Below the pieces are notes generated by a model that ran no database searches, was not told where the DNA came from, and saw only the letters and a list, made by a program, of their open reading frames with translations. From Sphingopyxis sp. QXT-31 (GTDB lineage Bacteria > Pseudomonadota > Alphaproteobacteria > Sphingomonadales > Sphingomonadaceae): 64,000 bases of DNA. Below are positions 1,786 through 4,989 of the stretch, piece by piece. Both the position numbers and the translations under genes were made by a program. The first letter of the stretch is position 1. Each line of letters begins with the position of its first letter. The DNA is taken from positions 2,666,001 through 2,730,000 of the forward strand of contig NZ_CP019449.1 of NCBI RefSeq assembly GCF_001984035.1, in the 5' to 3' direction.

Positions 1786-2583
1786 CTATGGGTCGCGCAT
1801 GAAGGGCGACAGCAGCTGCCGATGCCAGCGGTCGGCGTCGCGGTCGTGGGCGTCGCCCAGCCCGATCCGTTCGACCGGCTCGGTCGCGGGGTCGCGCCAG
1901 GTTCCGAACAGCCGGTCCCAGACGCTGAACAGCGATCCGTAATTGCTGTCGGTCTGCGCCTGCCGGCTGCTGTGATGGACCAAGTGCACCGCCGGGGTTG
2001 CGAACAGCCAGGTGGCGGCGCGCCAGCCGCGGCCGTCGGCGCGAATATTCGCATGCTCGGCGATCCCGGCGGCGATTAGGACAAGTTCGGCGATCGCGAC
2101 CGCGGCGGGCGGCAGCGCGAACAGCCAGATCGCGGGCAGCGCGAACAGCAACGACACGAACTGCTCGGCCGGATGGTGGCGAAACCCGGTCGTCGCGTCG
2201 ATCGCGGTGTCGGCATGGTGAACCCGGTGCAGCCGCCACAGCCAGCCGATCCGATGCGACGCGCGGTGCGCCCAATAGGCGGCAAAGCTGCGCAGCAGCA
2301 ACGCGGCCAGCGCGGCCAATACCAGCGGCATCGGGGGCAGCGGAAAGGGCGCCCCGCCCTTCGCCGCGCTCCATACGGCAAAGCCGACCAGGCTGGTGGG
2401 CACCAGCGCGGCCAGCAGCAGCGCCAGGATGCCCAGCAGTAAATTGGTCGCCGGGCGCCGCAACCCCGGCGCCGTCTCCGCGCGTGCGGCGAACAGGCCT
2501 TCGGCGAGTGCGGCAATGACGAAGGTCGCGGCCATCGCCCAAGGCGCCCACGCCATCAGTTCGTCCGCAAAGGCCCGCTCCAT
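1786..2583 (-). CDS. Sterol desaturase / fatty acid hydroxylase family membrane protein
   Basis: A 265-residue integral membrane protein with hydrophobic segments near residues 12-30, 45-72, 84-104 and 145-175. It carries the di-iron histidine clusters of the superfamily: HRASH (106-110), HRVHH (119-123), HH at 136-137, H177 and HLVHH (200-204). Family members use a membrane di-iron centre and O2 to hydroxylate or desaturate lipids or carotenoids. The start at 2583 was chosen because the first hydrophobic helix follows about 10 residues later; the frame remains open far upstream, and the Shine-Dalgarno is weak. It is divergent from the exosortase locus, with about 96 bp between the two starts. 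The substrate is unknown. Confidence 0.85.
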   Translation of the reverse strand: MERAFADELMAWAPWAMAATFVIAALAEGLFAARAETAPGLRRPATNLLLGILALLLAALVPTSLVGFAVWSAAKGGAPFPLPPMPLVLAALAALLLRSFAAYWAHRASHRIGWLWRLHRVHHADTAIDATTGFRHHPAEQFVSLLFALPAIWLFALPPAAVAIAELVLIAAGIAEHANIRADGRGWRAATWLFATPAVHLVHHSSRQAQTDSNYGSLFSVWDRLFGTWRDPATEPVERIGLGDAHDRDADRWHRQLLSPFMRDP

Positions 2584-2679: not shown

Positions 2680-2835
2680 ATGCGCGCATTGGCAGCAACC
2701 TTCCTCCTCGCCATGCCCACCGCCGCGCTGGCGGGCGTACCCGCCACGCCCGGCCCCGAGGCCGGGGTCGGCGCCGCGGCCATGGTCGCCGTCGCGGCGG
2801 GCTATTTGTTCCTGAAGCGTCGCCGCAGCCGCTGA
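2680..2835 (+). CDS. Tiny exosortase substrate candidate (signal peptide plus C-terminal sorting signal)
   Basis: A 51-residue protein. Residues 1-18 form a signal peptide (MRALAATFLLAMPTAALA). Residues 19-31 read GVPATPGPEAGVG, residues 32-45 are a hydrophobic helix, and the chain ends KRRRSR. A short Pro-Glu motif, then a TM helix, then an Arg cluster is the tripartite layout of PEP-CTERM-like exosortase signals. The next gene, 7 bp downstream, is an exosortase. If both signals are processed, only about ten residues remain, so the mature product would be a very short peptide or a membrane-anchored stub. It is not one of the sorting motifs I recognise by name (PEP, VPEID, VPLPA, VPDSG). The role as substrate is inferred from layout and neighbourhood. 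Confidence 0.7.
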   Translation: MRALAATFLLAMPTAALAGVPATPGPEAGVGAAAMVAVAAGYLFLKRRRSR

Positions 2836-2842
2836 GTCCGCG

Positions 2843-3679
2843 ATGACCGAAGCGGCGACTGTGGCGCCGCATCGCGTCGATCGTGGAGCCGCTTTTGCCG
2901 CCGCCTTGCTGCTCGCGATCGCGGGGGCGTTGACGACGCGCATCGGTGCCGCCGTCGCGCATCGCGGCCTCGCCACCGCTTTCACCGACCTGTTCGGGAT
3001 CAGCGCGATCGTCTGGTTCGCGGCCTTTGCGATCGGCGCGATCGCGCGCGAAGACGGCGCCCGGTCGCGCTGGCAACGCGGCGACGTCCCGATGCTCGCC
3101 GCGATTGTCGGCCCCGCGGTCCTGCCCGTCCCCGCCCTTGGTGCGGCGGCAGTCTTCGGCGCGGGGCTGTGGCTGGCGTTCGGCTCCGAGGCGAAATCGG
3201 CCGGCCGACGAATCGGCCTCGTGGCGCTCGCACTCAGCGCGCATCTTTTGTGGGGTCCGCTGATCCTGAAGCTGCTCGGCAGCGAATTGCTCGCGCTCGA
3301 CGCCTGGATCGCGGCGCTTTTCGCAGGCGGGAGCGCGGAGGGGAATATCTTCGGCCAGGCGGGGTCGCAGGCCTTCACCGTCGGCCAGAATTGCTCGTCG
3401 CTGACCAACCTCTCGCTCGCCGGGGTGCTCGCGGTCGCGCTGGCGCAATTGTTCGCGCTGCGCTTCGACCGGCGCCTGATTGCCGCGACCTTGCTCGCGA
3501 TGCTCGGTACCGTCGTGGTCAACGGCATCCGCCTCGCGATGATCGCGCGGCGTCCCGAACTTTACGACTATCTGCACAGCGGCGCCGGGATGATGCTGTT
3601 CGGCTGGGCGTCGTTGCTGGTCACCGCCGCAATCGTCGGCACCGCCGTCGCGCGCCACCCCGATTTTGCGCCGCGCTGA
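2843..3679 (+). CDS. Exosortase-family protein-sorting transpeptidase (dedicated type)
   Basis: A 278-residue polytopic membrane protein with about seven to eight hydrophobic segments. The exosortase/archaeosortase catalytic triad is present in the right order and spacing: Cys184 in QNCSSLTNLS, Arg230 in NGIRLAMI (with the usual Asn227) and His245 in YLHSGAG, followed by the last TM helix. Exosortases cleave C-terminal sorting signals of exported proteins at the membrane, with presumed transfer to an extracytoplasmic acceptor. It lacks the EpsI fusion of XrtA-type enzymes and no exopolysaccharide genes are nearby, so it resembles the dedicated exosortases that serve a single adjacent target. 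It starts 7 bp after the tiny substrate gene and overlaps the next gene by 14 bp, implying one transcript. Confidence 0.85.
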   Translation: MTEAATVAPHRVDRGAAFAAALLLAIAGALTTRIGAAVAHRGLATAFTDLFGISAIVWFAAFAIGAIAREDGARSRWQRGDVPMLAAIVGPAVLPVPALGAAAVFGAGLWLAFGSEAKSAGRRIGLVALALSAHLLWGPLILKLLGSELLALDAWIAALFAGGSAEGNIFGQAGSQAFTVGQNCSSLTNLSLAGVLAVALAQLFALRFDRRLIAATLLAMLGTVVVNGIRLAMIARRPELYDYLHSGAGMMLFGWASLLVTAAIVGTAVARHPDFAPR

Positions 3680-4169
3680 CTGGATATTGAGCGGCGCCGT
3701 GCTGATCGCGGCAGCGCTTGTCGCGACGAAATTGCTGTGGCTACCGCGCAACGTCTATCCCGATCGCGAACGGCTGGCTGCGGCGATCGAGGCTCGGCTC
3801 GCGACGGCGGGCCTGACGAGCAGCCGACCTTGGAAAGCGGCGCCCTTTCGGATCCGCGCCGCCGGTGGCGCCTGCACGATGATCGTCCAGCAACTCGACG
3901 TCGAGGCGGCCGAGAAGAGCATCTTCGTCGAACGCGCGCGCGACATCGGCCCGGTGCGCTATCTGTATCACGACGCCATGCGCACCGACTTTCCGCGCGC
4001 CGGTACCGTGCTGCGCGACCAGCTGCAGCGACAGGCGGCGCGGGTGGGCCTGATGGTCACGGTCGATCCGATCATCGGCGTTGCGGCGTCACCCGCCTGC
4101 CCCGATCCGGCCCCGCTTCTCGCGGGCCTCAAGCTTTTCCCGCGCGCGGGGCCGCCCGCGCTCCGCTGA
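3666..4169 (+). CDS. Exosortase-associated membrane-anchored protein of unknown function
   Basis: A 167-residue protein with one N-terminal hydrophobic helix (about residues 6-25), then a soluble, presumably periplasmic domain with two cysteines (in GGACTMIV and SPACPDP). The start is a TTG at 3666 inside the end of the exosortase gene (14 bp overlap); another TTG at 3687 is possible but would cut into the TM helix. I recognise no domain. By position it is the third member of the exosortase operon, comparable to the small accessory proteins (EpsI-like and others) that accompany exosortases, but no sequence motif proves that. Confidence 0.7.
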   Translation: MRRADWILSGAVLIAAALVATKLLWLPRNVYPDRERLAAAIEARLATAGLTSSRPWKAAPFRIRAAGGACTMIVQQLDVEAAEKSIFVERARDIGPVRYLYHDAMRTDFPRAGTVLRDQLQRQAARVGLMVTVDPIIGVAASPACPDPAPLLAGLKLFPRAGPPALR

Positions 4170-4236
4170 CTGATTTCGCGGGCGAACGGCGCGCCAAGCC
4201 GTTATGGTGCGGCGATACACCAAGGGAGTCGCTGCC

Positions 4237-4989
4237 ATGATCCGTTCTTTCACCCTTGCCGCCGCGCTCGCGCTACTGAGCGCCAGCCCGCTCGCTGCCG
4301 AGACGCCCGCGCCCATCGACTATAGCGCCGCGCTCGCCGATCCCGCGCGCCCGGCGACCGACCGCGAGCGCGACGCGGCGCGCAAACCCGCCGAACTGCT
4401 CGAATTCGCGCAGATCGCGCCGGGCGAAAAGGTCGGCGATTATGTGATGGGCGGCGGTTATGTCACCCGGCTGCTCGCCGCTGCGGTCGGCGACAAGGGC
4501 AAGGTCTATGCCTTCCAGCCCGCCGAGTTCATCGCGTTCAAGGCGCAATATGGCACCGATCAGGCGGCGGTCGACGCGGCCTATGCCAATGTCGATGCGG
4601 TGAGCGGGCCGTTCGCGGCGCCCGCTTTCCCGGTGCCGCTCGACACGATCATCACGGTGCAGAATTTCCACGACCTGTATCTGAAGCCCTTTTCCGAAGA
4701 GACGGGCGCCAGGGGCAGCGCAGCCCTGTTCGCGGCACTGAAGCCCGGCGCCACACTCGTCATCGTGGATCACAGCGCCGCCGACGGGACCGGCACGACG
4801 CTGTCCGACAGCCTCCACCGCATCGACAAGGCGGCGGTGATCGACGCGCTGGCCAATGCGGGGTTCGTGCTGGAAGCCGAGAGCGACCTCTACAAACAGG
4901 CCGACGACCCGCGCACAGCGAATGTGTTCGACAAGGAAATCCGCGGCAAGACCGACCAGTTCGCGCTGCGCTTCAGGAAGCCGGGCTGA
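4237..4989 (+). CDS. Exported class I SAM-dependent methyltransferase-like protein
   Basis: A 250-residue protein. The ATG at 4237 is preceded by GGGAG at a good distance and gives a clean signal peptide (MIRSFTLAAALALLSASPLAAE). The rest resembles a Rossmann-fold methyltransferase: APGEKVGDYVMGGGYVTRLLA (motif I region), then KGKVYAF, and VIVDHSAADG in the motif IV/V region, followed by an HRIDKAAV region. Similar exported proteins are common in sphingomonads and annotated class I SAM-dependent methyltransferase. A periplasmic methyltransferase has no obvious SAM supply, so the activity may be lost or altered. Its 3' end overlaps the convergent lipoprotein gene by 17 bp. Confidence 0.8.
   Translation: MIRSFTLAAALALLSASPLAAETPAPIDYSAALADPARPATDRERDAARKPAELLEFAQIAPGEKVGDYVMGGGYVTRLLAAAVGDKGKVYAFQPAEFIAFKAQYGTDQAAVDAAYANVDAVSGPFAAPAFPVPLDTIITVQNFHDLYLKPFSEETGARGSAALFAALKPGATLVIVDHSAADGTGTTLSDSLHRIDKAAVIDALANAGFVLEAESDLYKQADDPRTANVFDKEIRGKTDQFALRFRKPG

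Follow-up and report, generated by a model that had tools for sequence, protein, structure and literature searches.

What do bacterial exosortases attach their products to? Typical exosortase systems have many targets and lie within exopolysaccharide (EPS) clusters, and to our knowledge the acceptor of these targets is still open. A figure legend of 2006 gives it as an unknown periplasmic nucleophile (PMC1569441). Here we describe a gene set, rare in Sphingopyxis and related bacteria, that offers a minimal system for this question: it combines one enzyme, one tiny target whose short peptide would suit mass spectrometry, one accessory gene and one lipid-enzyme-like gene, which makes the acceptor question directly testable. 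Among open-licence papers we found no description of this module in print. We consider it highly probable that the exosortase and its miniature target are enzyme and substrate. As for the wider reading, in which short peptides, secreted or at the surface, are the product of a dedicated exosortase and are perhaps linked to a lipid that the hydroxylase-family enzyme modifies, we find the balance evenly poised.

A compact locus with a miniature target

The locus lies in a window of 64 kb, positions 2,666,001-2,730,000 of a 4.29-Mb single-contig genome; the coordinates of its genes are those of the window. An initial annotation had described three genes on the forward strand, and their layout is as it said. 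A small ORF (2680-2835; ATG at 2680, stop codon at 2833-2835) encodes 51 residues with a signal peptide, a hydrophobic stretch and the cluster KRRRSR. After a gap of 7 bp (2836-2842) comes the exosortase gene (2843-3679, ATG at 2843, 278 residues), whose last 14 bp are shared with a third ORF (3666-4169). These three genes are real, but the unit is larger: a divergent gene of the fatty acid hydroxylase/sterol desaturase superfamily (1786-2583, reverse strand, 265 residues) had been overlooked, and in the lineage of the window the unit consists of four genes. The 96 bp that separate the divergent genes (2584-2679) presumably hold a control region. The statement that no EPS gene is near holds among the neighbours run through Pfam. 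Downstream, at 4204-4989 on the forward strand, lies a gene that has a signal-peptide-like start and weakly resembles methyltransferases (its best NCBIfam match, E 4e-4, is short of the cut-off); homologues of it come after the module in loci L042 and L043, and none was found in L044.

The mini-target can be divided, by our own reckoning, into MRALAATFLLAMPTAALA, GVPAT, PGPEAG and VGAAAMVAVAAGYLFLKRRRSR. Its predicted signal peptide (residues 1-18, 2680-2733, assigned by eye) ends in the AxA site A16-L17-A18, followed by Gly. Five linker residues (19-23, GVPAT, 2734-2748), the sole candidate passenger, precede the core motif (residues 24-29, PGPEAG, 2749-2766), which stands at the head of the run PGPEAGVG. 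The hydrophobic helix and basic tail make up residues 30-51 (2767-2832), with G41-Y42 and R48. The motif had been described as Pro-Glu. In the aligned short targets its constant part is P-x-P-x-x-G and the Glu is not conserved: in a set of 17 short targets, drawn from 14 genomes, the positions that never vary include the AxA alanines (A16, A18), both prolines and the glycine of the motif (P24, P26, G29) and a Tyr of the helix.

A length-limited search of protein databases, which favours short targets and is blind to long ones, found 563 relatives of the small ORF at E<=1. Among the best 120 of these 563, the tail is nearly constant, and the linker and signal peptide are the most variable parts. 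In this subset 119 sequences could be aligned on the motif, and a simple AxA pattern placed the site 2-7 residues before P-x-P in 118 of them (5 residues in 48, 6 in 41, 4 in 20, 7 in 4, 2 in 3 and 3 in 2); the one remaining sequence has no recognised AxA site and was left unassigned. Short targets, divided in this way, carry almost no passenger between the predicted signal-peptidase site and the motif, and one may ask what purpose such a system serves. None of the curated C-terminal sorting models reaches its cut-off with the window mini-target, the best being CoaP_CTERM (16.7 vs 35) and LPXTG (14.2 vs 15.9). Of seven other targets scanned, only that of locus L058 exceeds the LPXTG model (19.1 vs 15.9), which we read as a resemblance of the helix and basic tail. 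One source gives a relative (P0114) the name MYXO-CTERM; we set this label aside, as the motif is described with an invariant Cys (PMC11980579) and the window mini-target has no Cys.

The exosortase carries C184 (3392-3394), R230 (3530-3532) and H245 (3575-3577) in the order that the initial annotation had claimed, and the profile search that it called for gives 28.3 bits with TIGR04178 (cut-off 23). By this score and by the order of Cys, Arg and His we assign the predicted enzyme to the exosortase/archaeosortase superfamily. The enzyme reading was to fall if relatives had lost these residues; C184, N227, R230 and H245 are invariant in all 27 aligned homologues (17 core and 10 class-level sequences). 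TIGR04178 also passes its cut-off of 23 bits in three of ten other exosortases scanned (L006 26.4, L009 26.5, L010 23.4) and stays below it in L008 (18.7), L058 (16.3) and L067 (13.9); L060, L061, L063 and L065 have no TIGR04178 match at E<=0.1. The window enzyme thus resembles the superfamily in its signature score, its invariant Cys, its N-x-x-R and the order of its His. It differs in that no named NCBIfam Xrt, Crt or Art model rises above its cut-off (best, cyanoexosortase A, 28.1 bits vs 150), which is likewise so for the ten other exosortases scanned, and in having C-S-S for the C-x-G of EpsH. Pfam gives no match at all, PF09721 (Exosortase_EpsH) included. EpsH is described by the motifs C-x-G, N-x-x-R and H-x-x-x-G, with six invariant residues (PMC1569441); the window enzyme has the other five of these and falls outside the six-residue definition. 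Among the 27 aligned exosortases, a Gly two positions after the Cys occurs in one and H-x-x-x-G in 26. Members of the superfamily are expected to have about eight membrane helices; the AF2 model of the window enzyme is mostly helical (pLDDT 86.7, pTM 0.85), its sequence has hydropathy peaks, and no solved structural relative was found. By sequence, the enzyme is a new and unnamed subfamily of a known kind of enzyme, with an unusual predicted substrate and partner.

That partner, the third protein, has an N-terminal membrane helix and an alpha/beta domain in its AF2 model (pLDDT 90.1, pTM 0.80). It gives no match to a Pfam or NCBIfam family, EpsI (TIGR02914) included, and its fold gave no clear structural match. 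Its two cysteines, C70 and C145, are present in every one of 37 sequences aligned and may form a disulphide.

The PEP-CTERM/XrtA (EpsH-EpsI) system shares with the window module a tripartite sorting signal, a hydrophobic enzyme with Cys, Arg and His, and a downstream partner. In contrast, the module has P-x-P-x-x-G, a single target nearly without passenger and no EPS cluster seen adjoining it. Its partner has no detectable similarity to the one EpsI-like region compared, the C-terminus of the EpsH-type protein of the same genome (hhalign probability 0.3%, in a single-sequence comparison of low sensitivity). This EpsH-type protein (L001, G000:C1:65373-66125, with C-S-G) is the only other exosortase found in the genome and its only match to PF09721. 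It has an EpsI-like C-terminal extension and, by eye, neighbours that are glycosyltransferase-like and asparagine-synthase-type amidotransferase-like; it seems to be a member of the PEP-CTERM/XrtA system. XrtF of Flavobacterium johnsoniae is, like the window enzyme, a variant exosortase with an adjacent partner gene. Loss is reported to impair biofilm and surface colonisation, and what we saw of these accounts describes no mini-target or hydroxylase, unlike the window module (PMC10936215, PMC12188702).

Co-occurrence of enzyme, target and third gene

Searches with the exosortase yielded 10 matches in 298 genomes of the family, of which 7 were full (E<=4.6e-33), and 5 in 80 genomes of the genus, 4 of them full; we dropped as partial the matches with E 1e-4 to 7e-4 (G135, G238 and G274 in the family, G367 in the genus). 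A scan of genome contigs added 10 exosortase loci, six of them taken as genomes already found, and 8 of 396 genomes of the order have the exosortase, three of them new. Combining the family, genus, contig and order searches leaves a core clade of 17 distinct genomes. The class (385 genomes) gave 10 genomes, the window's own included, and 10 further loci. In the exosortase tree the 17 core loci stand together (94/95), with L058 and L059 next to them (83/90).

Each of the 17 core loci has at least one mini-target or longer target directly upstream of the exosortase and the third gene directly downstream; the co-occurrence of the three genes, which the initial annotation had proposed as a check, is complete in the core clade. 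Of the 298 family genomes, a profile of the third gene matches exactly the 7 in which the exosortase match is full; in the 291 others it finds nothing. With the target profile, 5 of the 298 give hits of E<=1e-5, all among those 7; the remaining two have longer targets for which the profile hit is weak (G043, E 0.0046) or missing (G123), yet these are seen adjoining the exosortase. Weak target hits in 22 family genomes (E 0.001 to 0.01), treated as chance, and in 3 genus genomes were dropped before counting (E 3.6e-4 to 0.01 over both sets); in none of these genomes was an exosortase found. Only some first-look candidates were scored per genome (6 for the exosortase in the order and class, 12 for the third gene and 22 for the target in the family, up to 83 for the target in the genus), so that absences are not proof. 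For the target in the window's own genome all 139 candidates were scored, and the short-target profile marks one place (E 1e-20; next E 0.6), in keeping with the claim that no other target is near.

Adjacency, agreement in presence and absence, and a single target agree with a dedicated system in the published sense, whose enzyme would here cleave the mini-target. Dedicated rhombosortase/GlyGly-CTERM systems are described with one target per genome, encoded beside the enzyme, as here (PMC3237569); the window enzyme differs in being an exosortase and not a rhomboid protease, and its target in being nearly without passenger. The idea of a dedicated pair holds throughout the core clade; outside it, in seven of the ten class-level loci (L061-L067), no target ORF was seen in the stretches examined, so that pairing with a target marks a subfamily and not all homologues. 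The pattern used missed 4 of 20 loci with known targets (L026, L037, L038, L046), which makes these absences weak. By eye, L061, L063, L065 and L067 have a glycosyltransferase-like gene directly upstream of the related exosortase, with no recognised target, and in L061, L063 and L065 an ORF of similar size with a hydrophobic start comes next.

The hydroxylase-family neighbour and the acceptor

The divergent gene at 1786-2583 matches PF04116 with 104.4 bits (cut-off 31) and has the boxes HRASH, HRVHH and HLVHH. Members of PF04116 act on several kinds of lipid, so that the substrate of this one cannot be named. A divergent homologue is found by tblastn in 13 of the 16 core loci that can be tested, the seventeenth (L036) being left out because its contig ends there, and is not found in L037, L038 and L039. 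The three core loci that lack it in the ~7-8 kb on each side have targets with a long Gly-rich ectodomain (genomes G123, G043 and G011). With three core loci lacking it, the hydroxylase is not needed by every member. In the exosortase tree G123, G043 and G011 form one clade (98/92) inside the hydroxylase-bearing loci, which suggests a single loss. In two long-target Sphingomonas loci, L037 and L038, a sensor-kinase-like gene lies upstream on the opposite strand (at ~5.5-7.3 kb of the locus stretch), in the hydroxylase's usual place; in L038 a response-regulator-like gene lies beside it.

How independent are these 13 cases? The four Sphingopyxis loci have flanking genes in common, such as an acyl-CoA dehydrogenase (92-96% identity), so they represent one inheritance and one observation of linkage, not four. 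When five flanking proteins were compared with the other 23 loci scanned, nothing above 24% identity came up at E<=1e-20. Thus, the other nine loci with the hydroxylase do not share this location; they also fall outside the Sphingopyxis branch of the exosortase tree. The window's genome has seven PF04116 genes, and the 13 hydroxylases next to the module cluster apart from five own-genome paralogues (94/96), in a tree that leaves out L108 (the seventh gene, 49.5 bits, which failed the histidine pattern), six loose-pattern sequences taken as non-coding frames and one duplicate. Among the 80 Sphingopyxis genomes, a close hydroxylase homologue (E<=1e-45, a threshold of our choosing) occurs in four, the same four that have the exosortase and strong target hits.

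From this recurring lipid-enzyme-like neighbour, and by analogy with artA, pssA and pssD, we propose a lipid as the acceptor. In Methanosarcina, artA is described beside pssA/pssD, and in Haloferax ArtA-dependent cleavage is reported to require both Pss proteins, while attachment of the lipid requires HvPssA (PMC7157517). The archaeosortase A system thus has, in some genomes, a sorting-enzyme gene adjoining lipid-enzyme genes, as here (PMC7157517). It differs in being archaeal, with several large targets and with head-group enzymes, whereas the module has a hydroxylase-family enzyme and a lipidation that is proposed.

We envision the following sequence of events. The Sec pathway would export the mini-protein, and signal peptidase would cleave it after A-x-A; what stays would be a stub, a few residues long, ahead of P-x-P-x-x-G, a single membrane helix and the basic tail. 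C184 would act as the nucleophile together with R230 and H245, as their invariance and the enzyme family lead us to expect; the exosortase would then cut near P-x-P-x-x-G and pass the new C-terminus to an amine acceptor, to give a peptide of ~5-12 residues. The hydroxylase-family enzyme might alter a membrane lipid that is the acceptor or prepares it, much as enzymes of lipid head groups serve archaeosortase A, and the membrane-tethered third protein with its two cysteines may help on the periplasmic side.

It is possible, if somewhat doubtful, that we are looking at an ordinary dedicated pair whose acceptor is a polysaccharide precursor or water, as supposed for PEP-CTERM systems, the hydroxylase belonging to general lipid metabolism and merely sharing a control region. 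The wider surroundings of the family speak in its favour: L058, L059 and L060 adjoin Wzz-, GalE-, sugar-transferase- and glycosyltransferase-like genes (by eye), G011 has a UDP-glucose-dehydrogenase-like gene upstream, and the long-target clade does without the hydroxylase. The polysaccharide-like loci of L058 and L059 favour a polysaccharide-side role as the older state. Against a hydroxylase of general metabolism speaks that the gene keeps its divergent position next to the target in 13 core loci, nine of which are not from Sphingopyxis, and that these neighbours group apart from the own-genome paralogues. It is present or absent together with the exosortase in 80 of 80 genus genomes at the thresholds used, and L022 has targets on both sides of it.

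Paralogous and long targets

The single target that the initial annotation had noted is true of the window's genome and not of all others: two of the 17 core genomes have several, with conserved tails and different linkers. G093 has five, of which four stand in tandem close to the end of a contig and one lies on a different contig, and L022 has four, three in a row and one past the hydroxylase gene. The linkers in L022 and G093 are all different (GIGTPGV, GGTNAV, GPAAA; TKFV, FEVV, GSVVV, ELAPV). Between copies 1 and 2, the closest pairs, the tails show 10 synonymous against 0 non-synonymous changes in L022, and 12 against 1 in G093; tail changes in the other paralogue pairs are less strict (synonymous to non-synonymous between 7:3 and 12:8). 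The fifth G093 target (L101, G093:C19:3988-4104), apart from the exosortase contig, reads PRPEAGAG before a helix and basic tail, and the fourth of L022 (L022:2991-3407, forward strand), the one past the hydroxylase gene, has a PAPIVG tail.

Could the mini-protein instead stay uncleaved and serve the exosortase as a small membrane subunit or activator, the conserved helix and basic tail being what matters for its function? Its tail is far more conserved than its linker, the mature protein is nearly all tail, and among paralogues the tail is kept while the linker differs, as this would have it. We nevertheless find such a role quite improbable. In the position of the mini-target, G011, G123 and G043 as well as L058, L059 and L060 have proteins in which longer ectodomains precede a related tail (with PGPIAGAGLP, PGPLEGVGLP or PAPLLGVGLP in the last three), as cargo would have them; tandem paralogues and the distant G093 copy are what one expects of substrates; and sorting substrates usually consist of a signal peptide followed by motif, helix and basic tail. 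The small ORF has a mere 51 codons, and GC-rich DNA often contains long ORFs by chance, which could suggest that it arose in this way; conservation refutes this and leaves it virtually no probability: synonymous codon changes (12-20) exceed non-synonymous ones (5-8) in all 6 pairwise comparisons of the four Sphingopyxis copies, motif and tail recur in 17 of 17 core genomes, and the databases hold the 563 relatives.

With the mini-protein taken as cargo and a lipid as its acceptor, we can go one step further, to a reading that we regard as unlikely though worth stating: the module would make C-terminally lipidated peptides of ~5-12 residues, that is, a ribosomal lipopeptide route run by an exosortase with a dedicated lipid hydroxylase, in which paralogous targets vary the peptide but leave the sorting tail as it is, as one might imagine for a system of signalling or self-marking.

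Outside the core clade, L059 has a second target (L059:7806-8111, reverse strand in the orientation examined) with a Gly/Asn/His-rich ectodomain and a VPGPLEGVGLPF tail, in a locus that also has Wzz-, Wza- and sugar-transferase-like genes.
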